This document shows positions 14,660 through 33,283 of a stretch of 33,283 nt of DNA, piece by piece; within the stretch, counting starts at the first letter, position 1, and each line of letters begins with the position of its first letter. The translations under genes and the position numbers were made by a program. Under the pieces are notes generated by a model, which was not told the DNA's origin, did no database searches, and saw only the letters and a program-made list of their open reading frames with translations. Origin of the DNA: Pirellulales bacterium (GTDB lineage Bacteria; Planctomycetota; Planctomycetia; Pirellulales; UBA7805); NCBI GenBank assembly GCA_029245145.1, contig JAQWPY010000020.1, forward strand, positions 1-33,283, read 5' to 3'.

Positions 14660-17600
14660 TTATGGCGATCCTGTGTCGTCGAGTACCCTGTCTTTGGGGT
14701 CCGTCGCTTTGAACGCCGAGTCTCTGTGTTCCTTTGGCCGGAACGCCATCGAGGCCTGGACTGCAAAGTGACACGTACACCCGGAACTTGCCTCGGGGAT
14801 CAGCAGCAAGCCCCCGGCCGGAATCATATTAATCCAACAGCCGGGGCGAGAGACTTGGGTGACCTTGGAGTGCTTTTGCGACGCAAGATCGAACATCGCC
14901 GCATGACTGTCGCGAAAAAAGAAAGCACTATTGGATGCAGCAATAGTCCCGCAACCGCCGCGATGTCCTCTTTGCCATCCCCAATCGAAATCGCGCTCCC
15001 CCGTTTTTAAGTCGTAGGCAAACGGTTCTACGTAGAGCCGATCGCCGACAATCACCGGATGATGATCTTGCTCACCGTGATCTCCACCGGCCGCGGTTTG
15101 GTTGTCCTGTGTCGCCTGCCACTTGGTCTTGCCGCTCCCCGCGTCGAGCGCATGGATGTCGTACCACACCGTCGCTTTCTTATTGGACCCGGCCTGATTG
15201 CGTGAGCCGACGGTGATGTACGAGCCGCCGGCATAAAATCCGAAGAGATGATGTTCGATAGCCGCGTAATCGGCCTCCTGCTGCCATAACAGACTGCCGG
15301 TCTGCTGATCGAGCGCTACCACCCGTACCCCGTGATCGAGAGCCTCGTCGAGCTGCACCCGACCCGGATTTTGTTTCCGTTTTGGTCTGGCGATTTCTAC
15401 AAAGTACATTCTGTCGCCACCGAGCGCGATGGTCGGATTGAGAACCAAACGATCAGCCGGCGCATACTGCCATTTTAATTTTTGGGAATCTTGATCGAAC
15501 GCAAACACCGATTCACTTGTCACAATCGGTCGAAAATCCCAGTGCGTTCCCTCGAGAATCGATACGCGACTGTGCCCGCGGCGGATACCGCCGGTCGGTA
15601 CACCGCTGCCGAAGAGGAGCCTCTCGCTACAGGCAACGAGCCCCCATTCCCGAGACGAAAATTTCTCGCTTTGCGGCACTTTCAACCGCTTTGCAAATTG
15701 GCCATCTCGCCGCGCGAGTAAACTGCAGGTATCGCCACTGGCAACGAAGAGACCATCCTCCGCAGCGCACATCGACCCGCAATCGCGCAGCACGCCGATT
15801 CTGCGCGATCCTGGGACTGCCGTTTCCCAGAGAACTGTGCCGTTGTAGGCATCGACCGCATAAATGGTTTCATTGCCCGGGACGTAGAGCGTGCCATCGC
15901 GACAGAGGGGCGCTGCAGTTCGGTGGTGGCGATCGATCATCCCCTGAGGCCCCGGCAGGCCAAACCACTGCGGGGCGAGTTGTCCCCGCACTAGGCGATC
16001 GTCACTGCATGCGGTGTTACCCACGTTTCCGTAGAGGTGCGTCCACTGCCCGGCCCCTTCAAGAGAGTCGCGATAGGTGGGGTGAATCTGTTTCAAATCC
16101 CAGAGGCACCCGCCGGACGGGCGGACGACGCGCCAAATCTCTTCGCGGTCAAAGTTTAGATTCGTCTTTTCCGCATCGGCCACCACGACGAGGTTGAAAA
16201 GCCAATTACCGTAAGGCAAGGTTTTTTTGTCGGCGAGGTTGTGGATGGACACCTGGCCATAAAGATTCATACGATTCAGTCTATTTCGCTCCTGCTCGAT
16301 TTTTACCGCGTCCTGCATACCAAGAATCACTTGCATCTCGGTCGTAAGAGCGATCTGGATTGCCTCTTCCGCCAGATCATCGCCTAAGAGCAGACAGTAA
16401 CCTTGCCTAAGGCCGGTCGTCTCAAGAATCGCGTTTACCGTGCGGGATTCGGAGAAGCTCTTTTGCCCAGCAGGTTCGCTGAACGACGACTCACCGCTCG
16501 ATTCATGTTTCTGCGGAGTAAAACAATAAAGATTGCCCTCTTCGGTGCTGACAATCAGATGGTCGTCAGCAAGTATGAGGCTGCCACAGGTGCCTTCGAT
16601 ATTTTCTTCCCACAGCTTTTGATTTTTATCGCGAGAGAAAGCGGCCACGGTGCCCGGGCCTCCTGCAAAGACCAATGAGCCTGCTGCGATTGCCGTGCGG
16701 TCAAACGGGGCAAGGAGTTGAGGTCGCTGGATCACCGGATCTTTTGTTTTGCCATCGAGCGACTGAAGGACCGCACCACGAAGGTTCCGTCCGGTCGGCG
16801 CAAAGAGCCGGCCACCAAGACGTCGAAGATAACCTTGGGGAGAACGCGACAGATCAGTTTTTTTTAAAAGTGTACCGTCGCGCAAATCGATCGCAACGAG
16901 ATAGACCCCTTGCCGGGGAAAGAGTCCTGCGGTGAACCACACCTTTCCCGCTTCAACAAAAATGCCACTGCGGACCAACTGTGGATGGACCAACCGGCCG
17001 TTTCCAGGAAAATAATCTCCCGCCGGCTTGTACCGCCAGATTTCTTCCCCGCTGTCGGCATCCAGGCAATAAACGCCGCCATCATCCGAGCCGAAGAGGA
17101 CCCTGCCATCGACCACCGTCGGTGCAAGGCGGATAGGGGCTTCGGCAAAGAAACTCCAAAGCTCCTCGCCGCTCGCCAAATCGAAACAATAGAGTTGATC
17201 TTCGCTCGAGGACCCCAGGTACACTTTCCCGTCGGCAACCACCGGTTCAAAGCAGCGATCGAAGGCGACCCGCGGCTTGAGGTTTTCTTTACGATTCCAA
17301 AAGTCTTGCCGTGCCGGAGGTGGCCAGGCCGGTCGGGGGCCGGGTCGAATCTTGCGGGACCAGGCCAAGTGGAGTGGAAGGTCCGGCTCGCTACCCGCAC
17401 GGCGGCTGCGGTGATTGTCGTGGCCGAATGTGGGCCAATCGCGCGAGGCGTCGTACTCGGCCAGAGCGCCAGGGTAGGAAGCATGCTCGGCGGCAAACTG
17501 CGCTTTGATCTCACTTGCCGACAGAACCCGATTCCAAACGCGGATCGCTCCGATTTGACCGGAGAAGAATGTTGGCCCCTTTTGATTTTCATTTCGTGAT

Positions 17601-18214
17601 GGCAGCACCCCGATTTCAATTTCCGGCGAATCGAGAGGCAGTAGACTACCGCGCTGTTCAAATGCTTCGCCCGCTAAGGTGCCGTCGACGTAGATTTTTT
17701 GCTGCTGCCCATCGTAAGTTGCCGTGATCTGGTACCACTGGGCGTTTTGATAAAAGGGTCGGGCGGTGAGTTGCGTCGGTCCTTTTTTATTTTTGCAGTG
17801 GAGTGCGAAGAAAAAATGGTCTCGATCGCCCCCGAGGAGCCAGCCGATCTGGCCAGATTTCTGGCAGCAGATGAAGCCAAAAGACTGTTGGTTCGCCTCC
17901 GGTCGCACCCAGAGTTGCACCGAGAGTGCGTTCTGTGGCAGAGGTGCCGCGAGGGATGTCGTTCTCAGCGCTTCTTGGCTTGCGGAGAAACGGAGGGCAT
18001 GGGGCGGTTGCGGGTCAAAACGCAGTGGGGCCGATGCTGCGCGTTGCAACTCGGAATGACTCCGTCCGATGGAAGTCGACCTCTTTTGCAAGTTCCAATC
18101 GATGATCGGACCGCTCGGTTCATTGGCGGTTGCTGCGAGTGCTCCACATGTCACCAGACAAATGAGTAGTGGCAAAGAGCGACCAATGACGACGGGCAGC
18201 GTGGGGCAGGGCAT
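14660..18214 (-). CDS. Large exported LamG / PQQ-like beta-propeller protein with embedded methyltransferase-like segment
   Basis: 1184-aa ORF; signal peptide; LamG/concanavalin-like region (ATYDGQQQKIYVDGTLAGEAF...IGAIRVWNRVLSASEI); PQQ-type repeats (VYCLDADSGEEIWRY, IYAVDAYNGTVLWE). Confidence 0.9.
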   Translation of the reverse strand: MPCPTLPVVIGRSLPLLICLVTCGALAATANEPSGPIIDWNLQKRSTSIGRSHSELQRAASAPLRFDPQPPHALRFSASQEALRTTSLAAPLPQNALSVQLWVRPEANQQSFGFICCQKSGQIGWLLGGDRDHFFFALHCKNKKGPTQLTARPFYQNAQWYQITATYDGQQQKIYVDGTLAGEAFEQRGSLLPLDSPEIEIGVLPSRNENQKGPTFFSGQIGAIRVWNRVLSASEIKAQFAAEHASYPGALAEYDASRDWPTFGHDNHRSRRAGSEPDLPLHLAWSRKIRPGPRPAWPPPARQDFWNRKENLKPRVAFDRCFEPVVADGKVYLGSSSEDQLYCFDLASGEELWSFFAEAPIRLAPTVVDGRVLFGSDDGGVYCLDADSGEEIWRYKPAGDYFPGNGRLVHPQLVRSGIFVEAGKVWFTAGLFPRQGVYLVAIDLRDGTLLKKTDLSRSPQGYLRRLGGRLFAPTGRNLRGAVLQSLDGKTKDPVIQRPQLLAPFDRTAIAAGSLVFAGGPGTVAAFSRDKNQKLWEENIEGTCGSLILADDHLIVSTEEGNLYCFTPQKHESSGESSFSEPAGQKSFSESRTVNAILETTGLRQGYCLLLGDDLAEEAIQIALTTEMQVILGMQDAVKIEQERNRLNRMNLYGQVSIHNLADKKTLPYGNWLFNLVVVADAEKTNLNFDREEIWRVVRPSGGCLWDLKQIHPTYRDSLEGAGQWTHLYGNVGNTACSDDRLVRGQLAPQWFGLPGPQGMIDRHHRTAAPLCRDGTLYVPGNETIYAVDAYNGTVLWETAVPGSRRIGVLRDCGSMCAAEDGLFVASGDTCSLLARRDGQFAKRLKVPQSEKFSSREWGLVACSERLLFGSGVPTGGIRRGHSRVSILEGTHWDFRPIVTSESVFAFDQDSQKLKWQYAPADRLVLNPTIALGGDRMYFVEIARPKRKQNPGRVQLDEALDHGVRVVALDQQTGSLLWQQEADYAAIEHHLFGFYAGGSYITVGSRNQAGSNKKATVWYDIHALDAGSGKTKWQATQDNQTAAGGDHGEQDHHPVIVGDRLYVEPFAYDLKTGERDFDWGWQRGHRGGCGTIAASNSAFFFRDSHAAMFDLASQKHSKVTQVSRPGCWINMIPAGGLLLIPEASSGCTCHFAVQASMAFRPKEHRDSAFKATDPKDRVLDDTGSP

Positions 18215-20556: not shown

Positions 20557-20889
20557 CTAATTGACTAATTTCCCGTCAAAACCGGCTTGTTTCAAAGCGT
20601 CGATCAACGTCTGACTATCAAAATCGCTTTCGTCACCTTTGATTTGAACGGTTGCTTCTTTCTTTTTAAAGTCGACCTGGACAGTTTCGACGCCCGGAGT
20701 CTTTTGAAGTGCGGCCTCGACCCGAGGCTTACAGCCGAAGGGTCACGACATGCCGGAAACGACCAGGGTCAAAGACGGTAGCGATGCATTTTGGGTGGCT
20801 TTCGGACTCTCGGTAGAGGCCGACTGCTGGCATCCTGTGAGCCCGACGATTGCGATGACGCAACTAATAAAGAGGGGTTCTCGTCGCAT
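20557..20889 (-). CDS. Putative selenocysteine-containing heavy-metal-associated (HMA) domain lipoprotein; in-frame UGA at 20743..20745
   Basis: Read by me through the TGA: MRREPLFISCVIAIVGLTGCQQSASTESPKATQNASLPSLTLVVSGMS[U]PFGCKPRVEAALQKTPGVETVQVDFKKKEATVQIKGDESDFDSQTLIDALKQAGFDGKLVN*. Lipobox LTGC; HMA motif GMxCxxxC with the first Cys replaced by UGA; 61 sense codons intact after the UGA; SECIS-like hairpin downstream. Confidence 0.75.
20714..20728 (-). promoter_or_regulatory. Candidate bacterial SECIS hairpin
   Basis: RNA sense GCCUCG-GGU-CGAGGC: 6 perfect pairs, 3-nt loop starting GG; loop begins 21 nt after the UGA codon. A weaker extension below the stem is possible (UGU/GCA with an AA/C internal loop). 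Confidence 0.65.
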
Positions 20890-21017
20890 GGAATGCACTC
20901 CGAGGAATTGATGTTTGGGTGACCTCTTCGTTATAGCAACCAACTCCATGCGCCGCCATCTCTTTTTACCTTTGAGGCTCTTTTTCCCATTCGCTTCGCT
21001 GCATCTTCCCTCGATTG

Positions 21018-22143: not shown

Positions 22144-22932
22144 TCATTTAATTAATTCGACTACACGTCTTTCACTAAAATACTTAAGTGCCGGAATCAG
22201 GCGCAAAATCGACCGATCGATTTTGTTTAAGACTTTCGCGTGCGAGTTTTTTGGAAAAGGTATTCTTCTGATCGCTTCGGTTGTGGGCAGGCTGAAACCA
22301 CGACTCGAATACGAGGAAAACTCTCGCCCGTACTCAATGAGTTCTTTATCTGTCAAAGGTCGCTCAAAAGGAGAAATGTCGTGTAAGCGATAGGGAACCA
22401 TTTTACGTAATAATTTGATCAGGGAAGAATTTCTTACCGGTTCCTGAAAAATAGCACGACCATTTTCTTTCAGTACCCTCCAAATCTCTTCTGCAGATAT
22501 TTTAAGATCGAGATGATGGAGAATGTTGACACCGAAAACAATGTCAATCGACTTGTCAGGTAAAGGGATATCGTGTGCAGATCCTACGATGAATTTCACA
22601 TCGCCCTCGACATGGTTCACTTCAAGACGTTGGCGAGCGACTTGAATTAACTCAGGAGAAATATCGATCGCTATGACTTTGGCCCCTCGAAGCGCAAGGA
22701 GAAGCGTGTTGACTCCATCGCCACAACCGTACTCGAGAACGACCTTCCCGCGGGCATCCCCGAGTAGGGCAAAGCAGTATTCCAACGAGTGCCACGTATC
22801 GAGCGGGGGATTCATATAACGCTGAATGCGGCTATCCGGCGTTTTGAGTGTTTCAGCATCGACGCGGCCCGCTGCACCTGCACTTCGTGCTACTTCCGCA
22901 TTCTCCCATGATCGAATATTTTCTGAGTCCAT
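22144..22932 (-). CDS. Class I SAM-dependent methyltransferase
   Basis: 'VVLEYGCGDGVNTLLLALRGAKVIAIDISPELIQVAR', 'DIVFGVNILHHLD'. Start at Met 22932 because the longer ORF runs through the tRNA-His. Confidence 0.88.
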   Translation of the reverse strand: MDSENIRSWENAEVARSAGAAGRVDAETLKTPDSRIQRYMNPPLDTWHSLEYCFALLGDARGKVVLEYGCGDGVNTLLLALRGAKVIAIDISPELIQVARQRLEVNHVEGDVKFIVGSAHDIPLPDKSIDIVFGVNILHHLDLKISAEEIWRVLKENGRAIFQEPVRNSSLIKLLRKMVPYRLHDISPFERPLTDKELIEYGREFSSYSSRGFSLPTTEAIRRIPFPKNSHAKVLNKIDRSILRLIPALKYFSERRVVELIK

Positions 22933-22993
22933 GCCGAATTGACTAGTTTTGCGGAGACCCGTCGCGGAAAATTGGCGACCAGATTGCGGAAAG

Positions 22994-23068
<75 letters not shown>

Positions 23069-23401
23069 ATAGCTTGAGGTAAATTCAAGTACGCATGCAT
23101 GATAATTGGCCTTGGGCGACCGGTCAACGCGTTGCGCGTTACCCAAACTTACGATCTGGTGTACTCCAGGGTGTGGGCAAATCGCGATTGGTAAAAGCCT
23201 GAGTGCATCCAATCGGCATCGTCGCCTTCGATCTGCGTTCCTCCCCCTCCTATCGCAGCGCTATTCTCGCGATTGCAGATGAGCCGATTGAAGTCGTCTA
23301 CCCCAGTTCTTTCGCACGCGATATAATCCCCATAGACGGGTTTCCGGGTTTTGAGGGCCCGCCCGTCGCTCCTTCCTTGCCGCGCTATTCTATCTCTGCG
23401 A

Positions 23402-32940: not shown

Positions 32941-33027
32941 GGCATCATCCTGCCGCTACAGACCATCTTTTTCCACCTCCTCTACCGCGTGCAATAAATC
33001 AATAGAGTCCATAGCGCACACTGCAAG

Positions 33028-33283
33028 TGGAGGCGGCGGGAATCGAACCCGCGTCCCGCGACATTTTCATGAAAGCTTCTACGCACATAGTCGATTGTTT
33101 AATTCTCGCTCGCGTGGACTCCAACCGACAGGATGCCACCCGCGCTCGCCAGAAACTAATTAAACCTGAAGCGTGTCCGGCAATGACTTCAGGCGATTCG
33201 GAATTGGTGACCAGCTTTCAGGCCTCTCCGATGAAAGCCATCAGCCGGGGACGCCTATATTTAGGCGGCCAGTGCGAAGTTAC
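33028..33283 (-). ncRNA. ssrA: tmRNA (3' portion, runs off the window end)
   Basis: Minus strand: tag reading frame AAC TTC GCA CTG GCC GCC TAA (NFALAA*) at 33261..33281; T-arm GCGGG-TTCGATT-CCCGC and 3' acceptor strand ending GCCTCCA at 33028. Confidence 0.93.

Follow-up and report, generated by a model that had tools for sequence, protein, structure and literature searches.

A probable bacterial SECIS element in an HMA-domain lipoprotein gene and its UGA-specific counterparts across Planctomycetota

In the literature on selenoproteins of the heavy-metal-associated (HMA) type we found only UxxU, MerP and MerT/CopZ types, each of which resembles in part the locus described here. The NCBIfam family NF041115 (UxxU metal-binding (seleno)protein) comprises a small HMA/MerP-like domain with selenocysteine (Sec) as metal ligand, and NF045683 (MerT/CopZ fusion-like heavy-metal transport selenoprotein) carries Sec in an HMA-type domain fused with a transporter part. 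The GOS survey (PMC2398784) lists, without a motif, two MerP selenoprotein sequences that likewise have Sec in an HMA-type domain. The metallochaperones CopZ and MerP share the HMA fold but have CxxC ligands and no Sec. The protein examined here falls below every NCBIfam cut-off, the best selenoprotein profiles being NF045683 (39 bits against a cut-off of 375) and NF041115 (38.5 bits against a curated cut-off of 95). It differs from NF041115 in its lipoprotein signal and in belonging to a family with UxxxC or UxxxU instead of UxxU, and from CopZ/MerP in having one more residue between the ligands. A review from 2026 covering 119 families of prokaryotic selenoproteins includes neither 'UxxxC' nor 'UxxxU', its nearest entry being the UxxU metal-binding protein; the UxxxC/UxxxU HMA lipoprotein family is apparently uncatalogued, and the supplements with planctomycete lists (PMC4807772) may name a member.

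The window, by which we mean the whole stretch of 33,283 nucleotides that was analyzed (contig JAQWPY010000020.1, Pirellulales), harbors on its minus strand, which carries all features of this gene, a predicted HMA-domain lipoprotein selenoprotein gene at 20557..20889, with the ATG at 20889, the stop codon at 20559-20557 and one interrupting UGA. A possible ribosome-binding site, GGAG (20898..20901), was recognized by eye 8 nt before the ATG. Reading through the UGA (20743..20745) gives in translation a 110-aa protein (MRREPLFISCVIAIVGLTGCQQS...LTLVVSGMSUPFGCKPRVEAALQKTPGVETVQVDF...) with Sec49, whereas termination there would leave a stub of 48 aa that lacks the HMA domain. Sec49 would take the place of the Cys that serves as first metal ligand in the HMA motif, a position at which the UGA of homologs also aligns, and together with the following codons it forms the UPFGC (U-x-x-x-C) metal-binding or redox motif (20731..20745) in the context GMS-U-PFG-C. 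The HMA domain (PF00403, residues 43-105, 20575..20763) was matched with 45 bits, above the gathering cut-off of 24.8, and its predicted β-α-β-β-α-β fold was backed by Pfam as well as by PDB sequence and structure matches. The single-sequence AlphaFold2 model, of modest confidence with a mean pLDDT of 66 and about 75-82 over most of the HMA domain, exhibits the same fold, in which the loop U49-C53 connects strand 1 to helix 1, and Foldseek matched the protein with PacS, MerP and CopZ at target-normalised TM scores of about 0.78-0.88. The lipobox LTGC (residues 17-20, 20830..20841), judged by motif as L-x-G-C with its G-C invariant across the 8 homologs of the A1 alignment, predicts an exported, membrane-anchored protein.

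The gene neighbors, encoding a YgiQ-type radical SAM protein and a HAD protein, are syntenic in the genus, and this neighborhood, examined through genus synteny, gives no pointer to metals and does not decide between a metal and a redox function. Also syntenic in the genus is the gene at 14660-18214 (minus strand), which encodes a protein of 1184 aa combining PQQ beta-propeller with laminin-G-like domains and lies divergent from the YgiQ-like radical SAM gene. Elsewhere in the window, a tRNA gene at 22994-23067 (minus strand) overlaps the apparent N-terminus of the methyltransferase open reading frame 22144-23127; the peptide VAVAQLVRAPDCGSGSRGFESP of this reading frame resembles a translated tRNA, so the true start is probably located downstream. 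A tmRNA gene at 33025-33283 (minus strand) is cut by the contig end.

The initial annotation had placed a SECIS-like hairpin after the UGA, and its sequence, coordinates and spacing proved exact. The element GCCUCG-GGU-CGAGGC spans nt 15-29 after the UGA (20714..20728), and consists of a perfect 6-bp stem with the 5' arm GCCUCG at nt 15-20 (20723..20728) and the 3' arm CGAGGC at nt 24-29 (20714..20719), which enclose the apical loop GGU at nt 21-23 (20720..20722). The published model of bacterial SECIS elements (bSECIS; PMC13188914) describes a stem-loop directly after the UGA with an apical loop of 3-9 nt and an upper stem of 4-16 bp, within which the 3-nt loop and 6-bp stem fall. The further criteria of the model comprise a G within the first two bases of the loop, often as GG or GU, a distance of 16-37 nt from the UGA to the apical loop and a free energy of -7.5 kcal/mol or lower; the hairpin has GGU, 20 nt and -8.2 kcal/mol, respectively, and lies inside all limits, as is typical of a bSECIS. 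The E. coli fdhF SECIS has a bulged U. The window element likewise stands directly after its UGA and is shorter than that of fdhF; the parallel drawn by the initial annotation between its GGU loop and the fdhF loop accords with existing knowledge.

The statistical weight of this hairpin was evaluated against several backgrounds. Among the 982 TGA trinucleotides of the window, 14 (1.4%) were followed by a comparable hairpin, defined as a perfect stem of at least 6 bp with a 3-8 nt loop beginning at nt 16-25, and 0.8% qualified when a G was also demanded at the first or second loop base. Shuffles of the hairpin's own 60 nt gave a comparable hairpin in 1.9% of cases, and 5.4% of synonymous recodings that kept the amino acids fixed yielded a hairpin passing the SECIS model. 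The single-sequence folding energy was unexceptional (z of -0.08 and -0.89; codon-shuffle z of -0.92) and, lacking significance, was dropped as evidence. The window hairpin alone is only mildly improbable, and the strength of the observation derives from comparison. The frequency of about 1.4% after a random TGA and the unexceptional energy are also what can be said in favor of the UGA being a true stop, created by a nonsense mutation or a sequencing error, with the hairpin a product of chance in GC-rich coding sequence.

Conservation within the genus bears directly on this alternative. The HMA gene was found in five of six genus genomes, with the UGA at the same position in 5/5 and the SECIS-like stem keeping 6/6 pairs in every member. 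The stem codons +5 to +9 (AAG CCU CGG GUC GAG) were identical in all five, as compared with 0/14 of the other degenerate codons from -12 to +21 whose amino acid is invariant (p about 9e-5 for the arrangement), and pairwise codon agreement amounted to 50/50 in the stem codons versus 73/176 in the neighboring ones. The third base varies at codon +4, where nt 12 precedes the stem, and again at codon +10, where nt 30 follows it, so the synonymous constraint coincides with the stem edges. This confinement of the constraint to the stem, the reading frame that stays intact past the UGA, the UGA recurring at the same aligned position in the genus and in 87 homologs overall, and the co-occurrence of the UGA gene with SelB all argue against a true stop, which we consider highly unlikely and, on these alignments, in practice already refuted by conservation.

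The same comparison separates the hairpin from a competing fold with the UGA in its stem, which the initial annotation had noted as mutually exclusive with it and as either an alternative conformer or chance. This fold is real in the window sequence: it is the minimum free energy structure once the UGA is included (50 nt starting at the UGA) and is stronger there than the hairpin. It is not preserved among genus members, in which it keeps 9, 8, 6, 8 and 8 of nine pairs, and as a conserved structure it was rejected, given that the other four members lose one to three pairs. The likeliest view is that it arises secondarily from nucleotides held constant for the sake of the SECIS stem. The predicted minimum, together with a few pairs below the stem that can lengthen the hairpin in the window, could be taken to mean that the UGA does encode Sec but that the signal is another or larger structure, such as the fold that includes the UGA or an extension of the stem, to which the 6-bp hairpin is incidental. 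We regard this as very improbable, since the alternative fold loses pairs outside the window (three in L011) where the hairpin loses none, and the synonymous constraint stops at the hairpin edges. Moreover, a ribosome decoding the UGA would melt any stem containing it.

Homologs well beyond the genus were gathered by searching samples at order, class and phylum level with profiles, and these provided the UGA- versus Cys-bearing comparison that the initial annotation had called for. They comprise 87 non-identical sequences with a UGA at the first ligand Cys (in a couple of them misaligned, next to the Cys) and 83 with TGC or TGT at that position, which places the UGA opposite a functional Cys in multiple species, as expected of a selenoprotein. 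Their motifs include UPxGC-like UxxxC, UxxxU, whose second UGA comes four codons later, and, in some, UxxC. A separate contig scan, based on Cys-codon patterns only, returned Cys homologs from other phyla and no UGA forms. On some stretches HMA genes stand next to one another: L157, L191 and L202 include at least two copies with a UGA, and in L054 a CxxC copy comes after a UGA-bearing one.

The hairpins in this collection were enriched in UGA-bearing homologs and not in Cys-bearing ones, as is expected of a bacterial SECIS element. The hairpin-energy z from synonymous shuffles was -1.68 in UGA homologs (n=87), -0.36 in CxxxC homologs (n=39) and -0.48 in CxxC homologs (n=44), with p 5e-10 for UGA versus CxxxC; this and the other phylum-wide enrichment and covariation statistics ignore phylogeny, which renders exact p-values only loosely meaningful. 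After removal of the genus and reduction of redundancy at 75%, the strict bSECIS model was passed by 28/63 UGA sequences (44%) versus 4/72 Cys sequences (6%), the shuffle expectation being 4% (Fisher p 7e-8); the remaining 56% of deduplicated UGA homologs fail the strict model. The loops of homologs cluster at nt 20-22, the class to which the window belongs, and at nt 25-27, where most relatives have theirs as opposed to nt 21 in the window. When 3' arms were swapped between species, own arms fitted best, with z 5.9 for the later register and z 4.1 for a register that differs from the window's by one unit, and Cys homologs never exceeded z 2.1. Genus members do not differ in the stem, and the covariation signal comes from relatives whose hairpins mostly lie about 5 nt further on. 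The absence of stem conservation and covariation in UGA homologs, which had been named in advance as the outcome that would speak against a SECIS, was thus not what we observed.

Covariation was also evident in the UxxxU group. Its later-register stem showed, across 27 sequences, 15 extra pair types versus 10.4, a level reached in 0/500 shuffles, and outperformed all slid registers. The UxxxU homologs (L016, L020, L053, L054, L055, L058 and others) have two in-frame UGAs four codons apart and one covarying hairpin, the loop of which occupies nt 26-30 counted from the first UGA and is about 10 nt past the second, a gap from the second UGA that is below the usual SECIS minimum of 16 nt. As a tentative reading, to which we assign somewhat less than even odds, both UGAs may encode Sec, with a single SECIS driving two close insertions or the second UGA decoded by a different rule. 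If true, this would constitute an extracytoplasmic metal site made of two selenocysteines.

The distribution of the selenocysteine machinery was consistent with UGA decoding as Sec in this lineage. The host assembly contains a tRNA-Sec (70.5 bits, anticodon UCA), SelA (546 bits) and a SelD fragment without the region holding the UGA; no SelB above cut-off was found in this assembly, which is 65% complete, and SelB is present in four congeners (G001, G002, G004 and G005). In G002-G005 the SelD gene contains an in-frame UGA. In the three of them in which this region was resolved (L106-L108), the SelD UGA lies at about nt 1528 in the context CAG-U-AGKLP and is followed at nt 9-23 by a 6-bp hairpin, GCUUCC-GCA-GGAAGC or ACUUCC-GCA-GGAAGU, whose GCA loop at nt 15-17 is nearer the UGA than that of the HMA hairpin. 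An in-frame UGA with such a hairpin in SelD indicates that in this lineage UGA stands for Sec beyond the HMA gene as well. Across 61 further genomes, SelB was detected in 29/30 with UGA-type HMA genes versus 5/31 with Cys-only genes (p 3e-11). In some organisms UGA read-through can be independent of a SECIS, and one could accordingly suppose that near-cognate suppression, or a reassignment of UGA to Trp or Cys in this lineage, decodes the codon here; the presence of a dedicated tRNA-Sec, SelA and SelD, the specific alignment of the UGA with the ligand Cys and the retention of the hairpin only in UGA-bearing genes render the chance of this next to negligible.

Taken together, the invariant genus stem, the UGA-specific hairpin enrichment, the family-wide covariation and the Sec machinery support the SECIS reading, and we put the probability that the hairpin is a genuine bacterial SECIS element, inserting Sec at residue 49 of the HMA lipoprotein, at roughly 0.93. 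With the UGA in the ribosomal A site, the stem-loop, starting 15 nt downstream, would be situated just outside the mRNA entry, and from the parts present we infer that it would bind SelB and recruit SelB-GTP-Sec-tRNA(Sec) by the standard bacterial mechanism, so that the UGA would be read through. Sec would enter a small, presumably secreted lipoprotein with one HMA domain in place of the first of two metal-ligand cysteines. The Sec/Cys pair occupies the site at which soft metals are bound in HMA proteins. The most likely predicted role is to bind or hand over a soft metal ion (Cu+, Hg2+ or the like) on the outer side of the cytoplasmic membrane, with Sec-Cys redox chemistry as the second choice.

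These proteins would represent a large family of HMA-domain lipoprotein selenoproteins widespread in one phylum, presumably the Planctomycetota to judge from DUF1559/pseudopilin-type proteins and the overall style of the genomes, and conventional gene prediction would end their reading frames at the UGA. With SECIS hairpins in two registers and both single- and double-Sec proteins, the family would offer a natural series for probing the tolerance of SECIS spacing, and it suggests that selenium serves as a ligand for metals on the outer side of the cytoplasmic membrane.
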